Positions 19,898-49,950 of a DNA stretch of 64,000 bases are shown piece after piece (the first letter of the stretch is position 1; the number at the start of each line of letters is the position of its first letter). Where the stretch lies: positions 2,170,001-2,234,000 of the forward strand of contig NZ_CCBB010000001.1 in NCBI RefSeq assembly GCF_000613185.1, read 5' to 3'. The position numbers and the translations under genes are program-made. Origin of the DNA: Mycolicibacterium cosmeticum (GTDB lineage Bacteria > Actinomycetota > Actinomycetes > Mycobacteriales > Mycobacteriaceae). The notes below the pieces were generated by a model that made no database searches, was not told the DNA's origin, and was given only the letters and a program-made list of their open reading frames with translations.

Positions 19898-20515
19898 ATG
19901 ACTTCGCGGTACCTGCCCTACGCCACGAAACCGGGTCGGCTGCTGGCGCAGCTGCTCAGTGACATCGCGGTCATCGTCTGGACCGCCATCTGGGTGATGG
20001 TGGGCGGGGCGGTGTACTCGGCCGTCGCGACCATCTCCGAGGTGGGCCGCCAGGTGCAGAGCGGCGCCGACGGGGTGTCGGGCAACCTGGCCTCGGCCGG
20101 TGACAGCACCGATGACGTGCCGCTGATCGGCGGCACCCTGGCCGGCCCGCTGAAGGCGGCCAGCCGCGCGGCGGATGAGATCGCCGGCGCCGGGCACAGC
20201 CTGGACGTGACCGCGAGCTGGCTGGCCTGGGTGCTGGCGCTGGCGGTGGCGGCCACCCCGATCCTGGCCGTGGCGATGCCCTGGCTGTTCCTGCGGGTGC
20301 GGTTCTTCCGCCGCAAGTTGATGGTGTTGTCGCTGGCCTCCAGCCACGCCGGCCAGGAACTGCTGGCCATGCGCGCGCTGGCCAACCGGCCGCTGGCCAA
20401 GCTCACCGCGATCGACCCCGACCCGATCGGCGCCTGGCGCCGTGATGACCGGATGGCGATCCGCGGGCTGGCCCTGCTGGAACTGCACGCCGCCGGCATC
20501 CGGCTCAAGTCGTAG
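19898..20515 (+). CDS. Conserved mycobacterial membrane protein (Rv0779c-like)
   Basis: 205 residues with two transmembrane stretches (about residues 24-48 and 107-132) flanking a soluble, glycine/serine-rich segment of about 55 residues. A basic FLRVRFFRRKL follows the second helix, so the topology is probably both termini cytoplasmic. No catalytic motif is seen and the function is unknown. Position next to purC and cyp126 matches Rv0779c of M. tuberculosis by recall. The stop codon lies one base before palindrome copy 1. Confidence 0.7.
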   Translation: MTSRYLPYATKPGRLLAQLLSDIAVIVWTAIWVMVGGAVYSAVATISEVGRQVQSGADGVSGNLASAGDSTDDVPLIGGTLAGPLKAASRAADEIAGAGHSLDVTASWLAWVLALAVAATPILAVAMPWLFLRVRFFRRKLMVLSLASSHAGQELLAMRALANRPLAKLTAIDPDPIGAWRRDDRMAIRGLALLELHAAGIRLKS

Positions 20516-20516
20516 C

Positions 20517-20565
20517 GATTTGTGGAGCCGCACCCGTAACCATTACGGGTGCGGCTCCACGAATC
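20517..20565. repeat. 49-bp palindromic repeat, copy 1 (upstream of DUF559 gene)
   Basis: Arms 20517-20539 and 20543-20565 are each 23 bases and pair at 22 positions, with a three-base loop CCA. The core arm reads TGTGGAGCCGCACCCGTAA. The same element recurs at 21466-21514 and, with a GC swap in the arm, at 41580-41628. It is not followed by a T-run. It begins one base after the stop of the upstream membrane protein gene and ends 44 bases before the nuclease start codon. Confidence 0.92.
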
Positions 20566-20609
20566 ACAGAGACGGGAACCCGCCGACACCCGCCCGCGTC
20601 GGAAACAAC

Positions 20610-21488
20610 ATGCTCAGTGATCTCCTGCGCGACCACGACGGTGTGATCACCTTGGCGCAGGCTCTGCGGGCCGGCCTCAGCCAGGACGACATCGATTACC
20701 GGCTGCGCACCGGCCAGTGGCTCCGCTGCGCCCGCGGCGTCTACTTCGTCGACGACCGGCAGTTCACCGATGCCGCGCGCGTCCGTGCCGCGGTGTGGTC
20801 GTACGGCGAGGAAGGCGTGGCCAGCGGATTGACCGCGGCATGGTGGCACCGACTGACGCAGTTCGTGCCTGACATCGTCGAGGTGACCGTTCCCAGGGAG
20901 CGACGACGACGGGTGCACCTCGGCACCAAGCTGCGACGACGCAACCTCGACCCCCGTGAGGTCATCGAGGTCGGCGACCTTCGGGTGACCGCCTTGCCCT
21001 TGACCGTCGTCGAGGCCGCAGCCCGTCGCGGTGGTGGCGCCAAGATCATGGACACCGCCTTGCAACGCCACCTCGAACTGCCCGAGCTTTGGAAGTCTCA
21101 CCTGAACAACAAGGGCAGGCACGGCTCGCCGAGGGCGCGCATCATGCTGTTGGCGGCGGGCGACGGCGCGCGTTCCGAGGCCGAACGCCTGCTGGGGAAG
21201 CTGCTCCGGCAGGCCGGCATCACCGGGTGGAAGGCCAATCATCGGGTCGCCGGGTACAAGGTCGACTACGGCTTTCCCGCGGCCGCTCTGGCACTGGAGA
21301 CCGATGGCTGGGCATTCCACAGCGATCCCGACGCGTTTCACAGTGACCGGATCCGGCAGAACGCGTTGATTCTGGCGGGCTGGCACGTTCTGCGCTTCAC
21401 GTGGCTGGACCTCAACGAGTATCCCGACCGGGTCGTCGCTGAGATCAAACGGGCCCTCAAGCAGCGACTTGTGGAGCCGCACCCGTAA
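20610..21488 (+). CDS. AbiEi/DUF559-type endonuclease-like protein in palindrome cassette
   Basis: 292 residues in two parts. Residues 1-50 (LLRDHDGVITLAQALRAGLS, then YRLRTGQWLRCARGVYFV) match the AbiEi-type winged-helix antitoxin domain. Residues 185-285 match DUF559, a PD-(D/E)XK nuclease fold related to Vsr repair endonucleases: KVDYGFPAAALALETDGWAFH holds Asp219, Glu230, Asp232 and His237, followed by the strand GWHVLRFTWLDL. Such genes are common, often orphan, in mycobacteria; the role is unknown. No partner toxin is adjacent. The last six to seven residues, LVEPHP plus the stop, are encoded by palindrome copy 2. From recall this gene is absent between Rv0779c and cyp126 in M. tuberculosis. 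Confidence 0.82.
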   Translation: MLSDLLRDHDGVITLAQALRAGLSQDDIDYRLRTGQWLRCARGVYFVDDRQFTDAARVRAAVWSYGEEGVASGLTAAWWHRLTQFVPDIVEVTVPRERRRRVHLGTKLRRRNLDPREVIEVGDLRVTALPLTVVEAAARRGGGAKIMDTALQRHLELPELWKSHLNNKGRHGSPRARIMLLAAGDGARSEAERLLGKLLRQAGITGWKANHRVAGYKVDYGFPAAALALETDGWAFHSDPDAFHSDRIRQNALILAGWHVLRFTWLDLNEYPDRVVAEIKRALKQRLVEPHP

Positions 21489-21514
21489 CCGTTACGGGTG
21501 CGGCTCCACAAATC
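21466..21514. repeat. 49-bp palindromic repeat, copy 2 (supplies two convergent stops)
   Basis: Arms 21466-21488 and 21492-21514 pair at 22 of 23 positions around the loop CCG. The element lies between the convergent nuclease and P450 genes and codes for both C-termini: read from either side the arm gives VEPHP followed by TAA. The core arm is identical to copy 1. Confidence 0.93.
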
Positions 21515-22706
21515 GCACGAAAAGGTGCCGGATACCGGTGTGCCGGTTGCTGCGCGTCCACTCCACCGGGGCCACCAACTGTGCGCCGGCGAACCGCGCG
21601 AGCAGCTCGGAGAACATCACCCGCAACTCCAGCCGAGCCAGGTTGGCGCCCAGGCAGTAGTGCACGCCGTATCCGAAACCCAAGTGCGGGTTCGGTTTAC
21701 GGGAGATGTCGAAGACGTCGGCGTCGGCGAACACCGCGGCGTCGCGGTTGGCCGAGCCCTCCCACACCTGCACCTTCTGCCCCGCCTCGATGGCGCATCC
21801 GCCCAGCGACACGTCCCGGGTCGCGGTGCGCCGTTTCGACGGCGACGGCGTCGTCCAGCGCACCATCTCCTCGATCGCACTGGGCAGCAAGGACATATCT
21901 GCGCGCAGCGCCGCCCACTGCGACGGATGGGCGATCAGCGACAACAATCCGCCGGCCACCGCGTTGCGGGTGGTTTCGGCACCGGCGCTGAACAGCAGGC
22001 TGAAGAACAGGTACAGCTCGAGATCGGAAAGGTCAGCGTCCGCCGCGTTGGCCACCACCGAGAGCATGTCGTCGGCCGGCTCGGCGCGTTTGGCCGCGAT
22101 CAACTCCATGCCGTAGGTGTACATCCGTGAGCCGGCCTCCTCGGCCGTAAGCTGCCCCACCGACGCGCTTCGGCCCGAGAAGTCGAACTGCGGCTCGATC
22201 GCGTGGAACAGCCAATGCCGTTCGGATTCCGGGATTCCCAGCAGGATGCAGATCATCTGCATGGGCAACTCGGCCGCCACCTCGACCAGGAAGTCCAGCG
22301 GCTCACCAGGTGTCACGGTGTCCAGCAACTTGCGGGTCCGGGCCCGCAGGTCGTCTTCGACGCGGGTGATCATCCGCGGCGTCAGGCCTGAGGACACCAG
22401 CTTGCGGATCTGCGCATGCCGCGGATCGTCCATCATGTTGAGCACCTGCCCGGCGATCGCCAGGTCCTGCAACAAGGTGCCGCCGTACGGCCGGGTACCG
22501 CCGGTGACCGACGAGAACGTCACCGGATCACGCAGCACGGCAAGGGTTTCGGCGTGCGTGGCGACCGACCAGAAGCCTTCGCCGTCCGGGGTGTGTTCGG
22601 TGGGCTCGTGCCAGTACACCGGCGCCTGCGCGCGGTGCACGGCGAACAGCTCATGGGGAAACCCATGGGCGAAGTTGTCCAGATCCGTCAGATCCGCCAG
22701 GGTCAC
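21492..22706 (-). CDS. cyp126: Cytochrome P450, CYP126-like
   Basis: 404 residues. The haem-binding loop [17 protein letters not shown] places the thiolate at Cys351; the I-helix is [12 protein letters not shown] and the K-helix ExxR is in IEEMVRW. It begins without a membrane anchor, as is usual for soluble bacterial P450s needing a ferredoxin. Position directly after purB matches cyp126 (Rv0778) of M. tuberculosis. GTG start overlaps the purB stop by GTGA. The natural substrate is unknown. Its last residues RFVEPHP come from palindrome copy 2, so the C-terminus has been rewritten relative to what the family would need. Confidence 0.9.
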
Positions 22707-24121
22707 AAGATGGCGCCCGAGGTGTACTTGGCCGCCTCGGGGTAGCGGCTCACCAGCTCGTCGACCGCGCTGACCACGGTGTCGACCTGCGCCGAGGCCG
22801 CCCCGCTGAACGCCGCGCGGTCGGCCAGCGCGGCGTCGAGCGCCACTCGGTCCAGCGGCAACCGCGGGTCGGCCGCCAGCCGGTCCAACAGGTCTGGCTC
22901 CGAACCCTTTTCGCGCATGGCCAGCGCCACCGCGACGGCGTGTTCCTTGATGACCTCGTGGGCGGCCTCCCGTCCCACCCCGGCCCGCACGGCCGCGATG
23001 AGGATGCGGGTGGTGGCCAGGAACGGCAGGTAGCGGTCCAGCTCGCGCTGGATCACCGCGGGGTAGGCACCGAACTCGTCGAGCACCGTCAGGAACGTCT
23101 CGGTCTGGCCGTCGATGGCGAAGAAGGCATCCGGCAGCGCGACGCGGCGCACCACCGAACAGAACACGTCGCCCTCGTTCCATTGCGCACCGGCCAGTTC
23201 GGCGGCCATCGACGCGTAGCCGCGCAGCACCACCTGCAGGCCGTTGACCCGCTCACAGGACCGGGTGTTCATCTTGTGCGGCATGGCCGACGAGCCGACC
23301 TGCCCGGGCGCGAAGCCCTCGGTGACCAGTTCGTGCCCGGCCATCAACCGGATGGTGTGGGCGAACGACGACGGGCCCGCCCCCAACTGCACCAGCGCCG
23401 AGATCACGTCGTGGTCCAGCGAGCGCGGGTACACCTGCCCGACGCTGGTGAAAACGTCTGCGAAGCCCAGGAATTCGGCGACCCGGCGCTCCAGCTCGGC
23501 CAGCCGCTCGGTGTCGCCGTCGAACAGGTCGAGCATGTCCTGCGCGGTGCCCATCGGCCCCTTGATGCCGCGCAGCGGGTAGCGGTCGATGAGTTCACGC
23601 AGCCGCTGCAACGCCACCAGCGTCTCCTCGGCCGCCGACGCGAAGCGCTTGCCCAGCGTGGTGGCCTGTGCCGCGACGTTGTGCGACCGCCCGGCCATCA
23701 CCAGGTCGCGGTAGAGCACGGCGCGCTCGGCCAGCCGCGCCACGACGGCCACCCCGTGGGCGAACACCAGCTCCAGCGACCGGCGGATCTGCAGCTGTTC
23801 GACGTTCTCGGTGAGGTCGCGGCTGGTCATGCCTTTGTGCACATGCTCGTGGCCGGCCAGCGCGTTGAACTCCTCGATGCGGGCCTTCACGTCGTGGCGG
23901 GTGACGCGTTCGCGCGCCGCGATGGACGCCAGGTCGACATTCTCCAGCACGCGTTCGTAGTCGGCCACGACCCCGTCGGGCACCGAAACACCCAGTTCGG
24001 CCTGCGCACGCAGCACCGCCAGCCACAGCCGGCGTTCGGCGATGATCTTGGCTTCGGGTGACCAGATGGCAACCATCTCGTCGCTCGCGTAGCGGTTGGC
24101 CAGGACATTCGGGATGCTCAC
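22703..24121 (-). CDS. purB: Adenylosuccinate lyase PurB
   Basis: 472 residues of the fumarase/aspartase superfamily. It releases fumarate from SAICAR and from adenylosuccinate. Motifs: [16 protein letters not shown] near residue 88, [17 protein letters not shown], and the mobile signature loop [21 protein letters not shown] at 24121 gives the standard start [13 protein letters not shown]. It sits 18 bases downstream of a TetR gene and is translationally coupled to the cyp126-like gene downstream. Confidence 0.97.
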
Positions 24122-41574: not shown

Positions 41575-41579
41575 CCCGC

Positions 41580-41628
41580 GATTTGTGGAGCGCCACCCGT
41601 AATCATTACGGGTGCCGCTCCACAAATC
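41580..41628. repeat. 49-bp palindromic repeat, copy 3 (solitary)
   Basis: Arms 41580-41602 and 41606-41628 pair at 22 of 23 positions around loop TCA. The outer arm GATTTGTGGAGC and the inner ACCCGTAA match copies 1 and 2; in the middle, CGCACC-type bases are replaced by GCCACC. It lies between adhB and the KSI-like gene, ending only six bases before the latter's GCAGGAG ribosome site, and has no nuclease gene beside it. Confidence 0.9.
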
Positions 41629-41644
41629 GCCGTGCAGGAGAACA

Positions 41645-48921: not shown

Positions 48922-49950
48922 ATGAACCTCGGCAACACCGTCGTGCAGTTTGCCACGGCCCCGGTCCGCCTCGGGCTCGCCGTTGCCGACCTGGGCCTGA
49001 GCATAGCCGGTGGGACGCTCAAGACGGTCCAGCGTTCGCTGAACGATCCCGCCGCGATGAGCGGCGGAGCCACCTCCTTTGCCGGCATGCTCGGCCTGGA
49101 GGACGCGGTGGACCGGGCCAACCGGCTGGCCCGGCTGATGGACGACGACGCCCCGCTGGGGCGCGCGCTGGCACAGGACGGCCCGCTCAACCAGCTGCTC
49201 CGGCCGGGCGGCATGGTCGACCAGCTCACCGCGCCCGGCGGACTGCTGGACCGGCTCACCGCCGAGAACGGACCGGTGGCCCGCGCCCTGGCCAAGGACG
49301 GCCTGATCGATCAGGTCACCGCCGAGGGCGGGCTGATGGACCGATTGACCGCCGACGGCGGCGTGGTGTCGCGGGTGATCGCGCCCGGCGGTCTGGCCGA
49401 CCGGCTGCTCGCCGAGGACGGCGTGGTGGAGCGCGCGCTGCGCCCGGACGGTGTGGCCGATCAGCTGCTCGCCGAGAACGGACCGGTGGGCCGTGCCCTG
49501 GCGCCCGGCGGCCTGGTCGAACAGGTCACCGCCGAGGGCGGGCTGATCGACCGGCTCACCACCGACAGCGGGGCCCTGTCCCGGGTGATCGCCCCCGGCG
49601 GCCTGGCCGACCAGTTGCTGGCCGACGACGGGCTCATCGAACGGGTGCTACGTGAGGACGGGGTCGCCGACAAGCTGCTGGCCGACGGCGGGCTGCTCGA
49701 CACGCTGACCGACCCGGACGGGCCGCTGCTCAAACTGGCCGATGTCGCCGACACGCTGAACCGGCTGGCCCCCGGGCTGGAGGCGCTCGCCCCCACCATC
49801 GACGCGCTGCACGAAGCGGTGATCACCCTCAGTCAGGTGGTGAACCCGCTGAGCAATATCGCCGGCCGGATCCCATTGCCGCGGCAGCGCGGCCGGCGTG
49901 CCACGCCTCGGCCGGTCACCTCGCAACGGGTCATCGAGCACGAGGACTGA
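48922..49950 (+). CDS. Decapeptide-repeat protein of unknown function
   Basis: 342 residues. Residues 1-80 are a non-repeated, mildly hydrophobic, helical N-terminus without a clear signal peptide. Residues 81-270 are 19 exact tandem units of ten residues, no gaps, with the pattern [RQ]-[LAV]-[LTI]-[AR]-x-x-Gly-[LVPM]-[hydrophobic]-[DES]; Gly at position 7 is invariant. The tail (271-342) is helical and then basic, RQRGRRATPR. I do not recognise the family. A solenoid or surface-binding repeat is suggested by the strict period. It is divergent from phoP across a PhoP-box-like site. Confidence 0.8.
   Translation: MNLGNTVVQFATAPVRLGLAVADLGLSIAGGTLKTVQRSLNDPAAMSGGATSFAGMLGLEDAVDRANRLARLMDDDAPLGRALAQDGPLNQLLRPGGMVDQLTAPGGLLDRLTAENGPVARALAKDGLIDQVTAEGGLMDRLTADGGVVSRVIAPGGLADRLLAEDGVVERALRPDGVADQLLAENGPVGRALAPGGLVEQVTAEGGLIDRLTTDSGALSRVIAPGGLADQLLADDGLIERVLREDGVADKLLADGGLLDTLTDPDGPLLKLADVADTLNRLAPGLEALAPTIDALHEAVITLSQVVNPLSNIAGRIPLPRQRGRRATPRPVTSQRVIEHED
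49162..49731 (+). repeat. 30-bp tandem coding repeat with 210-bp higher-order duplication
   Basis: The 19 decapeptide codons form a 30-base periodic array. Inside it, 49252-49461 and 49462-49671 are two adjacent 210-base (seven-unit) blocks that match unit for unit, for example GCCGAGAACGGACCGGTGG at 49261 and 49471. This indicates growth by both single-unit and seven-unit duplication. Confidence 0.85.

Follow-up and report, generated by a model that had tools for sequence, protein, structure and literature searches.

A DUF559 nuclease gene between 49-bp palindromes in Mycolicibacterium cosmeticum and a possible REP/RAYT-like system in actinomycetes

Why does a nuclease gene lie between two near-identical palindromes, and why does the same palindrome recur beside other genes? 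These questions are raised by a 64,000-nucleotide stretch of the Mycolicibacterium cosmeticum genome (contig NZ_CCBB010000001.1, positions 2,170,001 to 2,234,000 of the forward strand), referred to here as the window, in which a DUF559 nuclease gene is bracketed by 49-bp palindromes. The pairing of nuclease and palindrome is a general system and is not peculiar to the window. Its best overall explanation is probably a selfish system resembling repetitive extragenic palindromes (REPs) and their RAYT enzymes, run by an unrelated AbiEi-DUF559 nuclease and with a mobility that we infer. Nowhere in the open-licence literature searched did we find a DUF559/AbiEi nuclease described together with dispersed palindromes, and the system looks previously undescribed.

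The nuclease and its flanking palindromes

The unit in the window has the following features.

20517..20565, no strand: upstream palindrome, 49 bp as 23+3+23, 44 nt before the start codon
20575..20600, + strand: promoter motif GGAAC-N17-CGTC, 9 nt before the ATG, which we take to be of the extracytoplasmic function (ECF) sigma type
20610..21488, + strand: gene for a 292-aa protein with an AbiEi-type winged helix-turn-helix (wHTH) and a DUF559/MTES_1575 (EDxHD/Vsr-like) nuclease, from Pfam, AlphaFold, Foldseek and a PDB profile
20682..20696, + strand: codons 25-29, predicted start of the wHTH recognition helix, from covariation and the model
20898..20912, + strand: codons 97-101 (ERRRR), predicted loop between two strands, from covariation and the model
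21174..21458, + strand: nuclease domain, from Pfam, alignment and Foldseek
21466..21514, no strand: downstream palindrome, giving the stop codons of the nuclease gene and of a convergent cyp126-like open reading frame (ORF)

A preliminary description of the window had reported the two near-identical 49-bp palindromes around the gene and a third without a nuclease, and all three are present. The upstream palindrome, with 23 arm pairs round a 3-nt centre, abuts the promoter-like -35 box on its 5' side and is 93% identical over 55 nt to the downstream one. The nuclease ends in VEPHP and a stop codon encoded inside the downstream palindrome, where the convergent ORF terminates with the same residues.

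Judged by sequence and by an AlphaFold model, the protein combines an AbiEi-type DNA reader with an EDxHD/Vsr-like nuclease of putative catalytic activity. Pfam places AbiEi_4 at residues 2-45 and the DUF559/MTES_1575 nuclease at 189-283; at E<=1 it returns only AbiEi and DUF559/MTES_1575 domains, with no HUH/Y1 transposase domain. With the model as query, the best Foldseek match of the N-terminal part is the two-domain fold of AbiEi 6y8q. The C-terminal part matches the homing endonuclease I-Bth0305I (3r3p; Foldseek TM 0.81 by target), also in a profile comparison with PDB sequences. Residues D219, E230, D232, H237 and D246 are invariant in 71 aligned sequences; the assignment of E230, D232, H237 and D246 to the EDxHD motif was made by eye. 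The model has a mean pLDDT (per-residue confidence) of 78.8 and is poor at residues 141-157 and 169-186, so residue 171 is not interpretable. Among 8000 scored candidates, 2033 proteins reach E<=0.001, and those listed are annotated as DUF559, "very-short-patch-repair endonuclease" or similar.

Nuclease and palindrome are associated across genomes. From 62 named loci and further ones, 168 were given for scoring and 161 were scorable, duplicates included; the score is the number of pairs, out of 24, in the best 49-bp palindrome of a 110-nt segment. At least 17 pairs are found upstream of 127 of the 161 nuclease loci and downstream of 83; among control windows this score is reached by 22 of 5070, and within the gene by 3 of 972. 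The suggestion that nuclease and palindrome form a pair is upheld by these counts, and also by the tracking of palindrome number with the nuclease in 198 genomes (below). Dropping two short translations (L042, L192; L and G numbers are our handles for loci and genomes) and merging duplicates left 143. Among 115 distinct Mycobacterium units, now at a threshold of 16 pairs, 104 have an upstream palindrome and 69 have one at the stop codon, and flank similarity distributes the units over 19 distinct sites. At the canonical site, beside an Rv0779c-like gene, the 60 units comprise 53 with the upstream copy, 19 with the downstream copy and 16 with both; the corresponding numbers for the 55 units at other sites are 51, 50 and 47. 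Among 21 rows from Rhodococcus and kin, 19 have the upstream and 13 the downstream palindrome.

The window's genome (G000) encodes a second nuclease, 61% identical to the first, with the same layout between a different palindrome pair (L017/L119). A matching pair is absent at three more distant DUF559 paralogues checked in this genome (L019, L020, L021), and yet another, L424, has a hairpin on just one side. Chance coincidence of DUF559 genes and palindromes was rejected, given the lack of a matching pair at L019-L021 and the low control rates. A different, unrelated 40-nt palindrome or hairpin lies at 2418-2457 of L020, near the 3' end of its DUF559 gene. A class-wide Pfam MTES_1575 search gave mostly very long open frames as its top matches. 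Twenty small DUF559 ORFs were taken from its list, 19 from other genomes and 1 from the window's, and about six of these have similar two-sided pairs as judged by eye (L407, L409, L417, L418, L422, L423), with 5 of 157 controls reaching 17 pairs. Among remote DUF559 paralogues, L431 (G200) has similar palindromes on both sides, with 15 and 17 of 24 pairs, L427 (G066) has 19 pairs downstream and L433 (G212) has a weak 14. These cases hint that the pairing may be older and wider than the present subfamily.

Palindrome geometry and covariation with the protein

To avoid a bias toward hairpins, upstream palindromes were chosen again by their outer GATTT...AAATC ends alone, with at most 2 mismatches, which recovers 101 of 117 units (2 of the 117 come from a genome of another genus in the same order). 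The geometry is fixed: the gap from palindrome to start codon is 43-45 nt in 86 of the 101. Inner positions 6-24 are paired in 76% of cells, compared with 48% expected from column make-up, and pairing is high at positions 6-12 and 20-22 and low at 14-16 and 23. Between palindrome and start codon, a motif searched as GGAAC-N14-20-CGTC and of the form GGAAC-N17/18-CGTC occurs at 117 of 133 loci (duplicates included) compared with 11 of 13229 control windows. The 23+3+23 geometry equals that of the published AbiEi operator, described as two 23-bp inverted repeats 3 bp apart; Rv2827c is described in the same source as also binding 23-bp repeats in its own promoter (PMC7319586).

The palindrome sequence varies between units yet tracks the protein. 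Recognition-helix residues 25, 26 and 29 covary with palindrome positions 17, 18 and 20 (span 17-20), and loop residues 97-100 covary with positions 6-12. A within-cluster shuffle null was uninformative because 98 of the 101 units fall in one cluster, and tree-based pairs were used instead. The protein very probably recognises the palindrome, which is a well-supported part of our account. In a separate comparison, the upstream palindromes of two near-identical nucleases at the same locus (L044 and L050) are unlike in their inner half and both keep GATTTCGGTGC, which accords with the positions tied to the loop.

Dispersed copies, their placement and their history

The dispersed copies and the neighbourhood of the unit involve three further features of the window.

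41580..41628, no strand: solo palindrome of the same family, 5 nt past a stop codon and 16 nt ahead of the next start
19898..20515, + strand: Rv0779c-like gene (a name we assume), which marks the ancestral, canonical nuclease locus
21492..23183, - strand: convergent ORF, presumably cyp126-like, with its 3' end in the downstream palindrome and its start set mechanically

With up to 3 mismatches, the window palindrome pattern occurs at 17 places in G000 (6.46 Mb) and its reversed-pattern control at 0; 2 of the 17 flank the window nuclease and 15 do not. The preliminary description had named two findings that would count against it, namely palindromes equally common beside genes unrelated to DUF559 and nucleases without flanking palindromes at this locus in relatives. 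Each is seen in part, because most palindromes adjoin other genes (15 of the 17) and many canonical units are upstream-only (downstream copy in 19 of 60 at 16 pairs or more).

For counts across the genus, we used 198 genomes, one per species, a nuclease threshold of E<=1e-30 and a pattern derived from the window's lineage that fixes positions 1-8 of each arm with at most 1 mismatch. Palindrome number follows nuclease dose: the median is 18.5 in 90 nuclease-positive genomes and 2 in 108 negative ones (p=3.6e-24 ignoring kinship, such simple tests being inflated because the genomes are one per species). For 0, 1, 2 and 3 nucleases the medians are 2, 14, 30 and 38 (n=108, 62, 23 and 5). The reversed-pattern control gives 0-2 per genome, and summing the means puts the total for the pattern itself at about 2,475 places. 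Some nuclease-positive genomes have variant outer ends that this pattern misses.

By sequence, the dispersed copies resemble the unit palindromes and appear to be the same sort of site. Among 19 copies read in G181, block means are 0.00-0.09 bits at positions 1-12 and 17-22, 0.88 bits at 13-16 and 1.22 bits at 23-24; the picture is less clean in G028, which varies at position 19, and in G122, at position 17. The copies from G000, G028 and G034 had been sorted by positions 6-12 for this comparison, and the G122 set leaves out one place that is not palindromic. In three genomes the copies also match the unit of their own genome. In G000, which has two units and whose 23 places were found partly by a longer pattern (14 from one search, 9 from another), 19 of 23 copies are closest to a unit of their own genome among 104 units. 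The own unit is among the five closest for 19 of 19 copies in G181 (out of 49 places) and for 13 of 16 in G028 (16 of 30 copies, exact matches minus the unit's own). Many of the G034 copies are of a GTGGAG family, the nuclease of which is present in relatives and was not found in G034. A third family in G000 (GTGCACGTTC...; L126, L300, L301), with no cognate nuclease found, is possibly an orphan after nuclease loss.

Solo palindromes sit at gene 3' ends in the two genomes surveyed. With genes called by a codon-usage caller made for this analysis, 42 solo palindromes (23 from G000 and 19 of 49 places from G181) divide into 27 between convergent genes, 14 between codirectional genes, 0 between divergent genes and 1 in a called gene. 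The window's own junctions number 12 convergent, 38 codirectional and 12 divergent, and against these the convergent excess gives p=3e-6 and the lack of divergent sites p=0.003. Counted by hand, 68 gene 3' ends adjoin these palindromes; 65 of them fall between -2 and +12 nt from the element, and at 26 of the 68 a TGA stop codon takes its GA from it.

Sites turn over between related genomes. At 14 sites compared between G181 and its sister species G173, the palindrome is in both at 10, sometimes with a two-sided change that preserves pairing (L317 vs L328). The four sites not shared comprise three with both flanks matched (L303, L304, L311) and one with one flank matched (L305). A clean empty site lies between convergent TGA stops: G173 reads CAAGTGA-AATCAC where G181 has a 43-bp body and a 14-bp tandem copy of the left flank, a difference that is unpolarised. 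G165 has the same palindrome family round its nuclease, yet none at five two-flank-matched sites (L306, L308, L309b, L310, L312); at the remaining compared sites one flank or neither matched. At the place of the solo palindrome 41580-41628, among 30 loci, G165 and G159 have a palindrome of the same type and others are short and empty. Several orthologues of 41575-41644 (L269, L270, L271, L274, L276, L278, L284, L291) contain a different, longer hairpin around GAAATNGCATTCCAGC ... GGAATGCNATTTCGGC, and because several species carry it there, another dispersed palindrome family may exist in mycobacteria.

The unit itself has changed sites. The preliminary description took the nuclease gene for an insertion between the Rv0779c-like gene and cyp126, as part of a possible mobile cassette. 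The position is instead old: of the 198 genomes of the genus, 194 have a match to the Rv0779c-like gene, and of its 30 best-scoring loci 25, that of the window among them, have a homologous nuclease alongside. We rejected a recent insertion of a cassette at this position, since orthologous nucleases stand there in many species and the nuclease is ancestral. Precise excision between the two palindromes was also rejected, as the losses inspected, in G034, G187 and G165, retain remnants. The window nuclease groups at 99 (a starred branch) with nucleases of G145, G120, G202 and M. neoaurum that occupy two other sites and have GTGGAG-type or variant palindromes. G120 and G145 hold a different copy beside Rv0779c, 63% and 59% identical to the window nuclease. 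On the tree the canonical label needs 11 changes, at least 6 of them on starred branches, and the site changes 24 times. The tree supports replacement or relocation between sites, and either would account for a window copy whose lineage stands elsewhere in relatives. Elsewhere in the window, 49204-49700 contains degenerate tandem repeats with 30-nt spacing.

Explanations and related systems

In the mechanism that we propose, two protein copies would bind one 49-bp palindrome, one per 23-bp arm, with the recognition helix reading positions 17-20 and the loop positions 6-12 of each half; this two-subunit reading is suggested by covariation, operator geometry and the model. The upstream palindrome, abutting the nuclease promoter, is probably the unit's own operator, through which the gene would regulate itself. 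The nuclease would cut at or beside palindromes or target sites and the host would mend the break. Repair would spread palindrome copies in trans, and mainly insertions at gene 3' ends would survive. Irregular junctions would accord with the end-joining repair that mycobacteria have. From time to time a complete palindrome-gene-palindrome unit would move or replace a resident one, a pattern seen on the tree, and specificity would drift by joint change of loop, helix and palindrome.

Placement at gene 3' ends lends itself to other readings. That the palindromes are plain bidirectional intrinsic terminators, alike by accident, fits stable hairpins there (-36.6 to -43.5 kcal/mol for the three window copies); we consider it very improbable and rejected it for want of a T-tract after the hairpin, with a run of 4 T on 0 of 84 sides of the 42 sites and at least 5 T in 9 nt on 2 of 84, and the palindrome sequence covaries with the protein while copy number tracks the nuclease. 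Less far-fetched, although we think it unlikely, is a domesticated road-block, in which the palindromes would be host-useful 3'-end sites where the protein, once bound, halts RNA polymerase or relieves conflict between genes that converge. Selection, and not copying by the nuclease, would then place them, and nuclease activity would be secondary. The excess of convergent placement, the absence of divergent sites and the close spacing to 3' ends agree with this, and palindromes remain in genomes without a close nuclease, which leaves room for host function. Against the road-block stand the invariance of the putative catalytic residues, the turnover between sister species and the five sites at which G165 lacks the palindrome; moreover, REP elements are described as having the same intergenic, convergent or unidirectional bias (PMC3733652), so placement bias alone does not establish a host function.

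Another rival gives the nuclease an ordinary autoregulated role, antiphage or toxin-antitoxin-like, with the upstream palindrome merely its operator and the copies spread by an unrelated agent. The identical AbiEi operator geometry, the promoter repeats bound by Rv2827c (PMC7319586), the promoter-like motif abutting the palindrome and the match of the protein to PADLOC AbiEi models (best E=6e-26) would all suit such a role. It leaves unexplained the matching stop-codon copy in 50 of 55 non-canonical units, the dose relation, and the dispersed copies matching their own unit in G000, G181 and G028, and we regard it as improbable.

The selfish, REP/RAYT-like explanation has its own difficulties. 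On recognition, the loop TGHHP occurs with three different half-sites, the loop SSNGR accompanies GTGAGTG in 4 of 4 cases, contrary to the residue-100 rule, the covariation shuffle null was uncorrected for phylogeny, and the starred-branch pair tests had only 3-8 independent pairs (seven tests inspected). On the pairing, the downstream palindrome is found in just 19 canonical units, where inheritance looks mostly vertical. At least 10 palindromes occur in 10 of the 108 nuclease-negative genomes, of which 8 have only remote paralogues (26-33%) and 2 have none in a deeper search, and 8 of the 90 nuclease-positive genomes have fewer than 5 pattern matches. The cognate match is weak in G034 (3 of 12 copies in the top five) and G020 (3 of 8), these being 12 of 16 and 8 of 12 copies once unit-flanking, duplicate and non-palindromic ones were excluded. 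As to copying, the only clean empty site has no ordinary target-site duplication, the 14-bp flank copy being on one side only. In the copies of G181, changes on one side are more frequent than paired changes on both (42 vs 11), which indicates that hairpin pairing itself is not strongly selected there, and pairing is no higher than column make-up gives (0.84 and 0.84).

The preliminary description had suggested a Vsr-like nuclease that recognises or mobilises hairpins, loosely as RAYTs act on REPs, or a selfish unit of nuclease and palindrome. Recognition is very probable and the analogy is apt; mobilisation would follow from the mechanism proposed above. RAYT genes are described as flanked by palindromes, with related repeats dispersed intergenically under a convergent or unidirectional bias and with co-evolution of enzyme and repeat (PMC3733652, PMC3116915, PMC8266576). 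The present nuclease gene is likewise flanked by palindromes dispersed elsewhere, with an extragenic, 3'-end and convergent bias at the 42 sites in two genomes. It differs in having no HUH/Y1 match and an AbiEi reader with an EDxHD/Vsr-like nuclease instead, and in a repeat of 49 bp that is palindromic, has operator geometry and GATTT...AAATC ends, and is seen here in actinomycetes. A constant GTAG (or CGTC) end is absent: the outer ends are GATTT...AAATC in the 101 of 117 units, and among ten flanks inspected GTAG is not constant, one holding it at a stop codon. The system works like REP/RAYT but fails the defining enzyme test of that family.

Other known systems share parts of the arrangement. 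With AbiEi/Rv2827c antitoxins (type IV toxin-antitoxin) the protein shares the N-terminal two-domain fold of an AbiEi-like DNA-binding protein and an upstream operator-type pair of 23-bp repeats; it adds a nuclease domain, its sites are dispersed at gene 3' ends, and a toxin partner was not seen among the listed ORFs, no scan for an AbiEii/DUF1814 nucleotidyltransferase having been made. With the EDxHD homing endonuclease I-Bth0305I, which according to a review forms a dimer on its target of nearly 60 bp (PMC3943268), it shares the catalytic fold and E230, D232, H237 and D246. The present gene is free-standing, and its palindrome flanks the gene and recurs as solo copies rather than marking one empty allele. 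By sequence and model, operator geometry is common to AbiEi and the fold to the EDxHD homing endonuclease, and standard membership is shown for neither. Like miniature inverted-repeat transposable elements (MITEs) and insertion sequences, the palindromes are small dispersed inverted repeats, probably mobilised in trans, but the protein has no transposase match, and the single clean empty site lacks a regular target-site duplication. A CGAAA-N19-TTTCG motif described in mycobacteria (PMC5217627) differs from the present palindrome in spacing.

The best-known dispersed palindromes of bacteria, the REPs, are described as tied to HUH tyrosine transposases, with one REP class listed as having no known dedicated enzyme (PMC3733652). 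Because a nuclease of unrelated origin gives the same signature, the combination of an enzyme with a dispersed palindrome would have arisen more than once. We put at even chances the broader proposal of a new bacterial selfish class, in which a free-standing nuclease, made of an antitoxin-type reader joined to a homing-endonuclease core, disseminates copies of its operator palindrome in trans to the 3' ends of genes in actinomycete genomes, with a short amino-acid-to-base code (loop 97-101, helix 25-29) that lets specificity switch repeatedly. If true, this would be a natural modular family of sequence-specific nucleases. The covariation offers a residue-to-base code from natural variation, through which repeat recognition and spread become testable with purified proteins, and the common, uncharacterised DUF559 family thereby gains a role open to testing. 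For the mycobacteria themselves, the transcript ends of convergent genes may be affected at some of these approximately 2,475 places.
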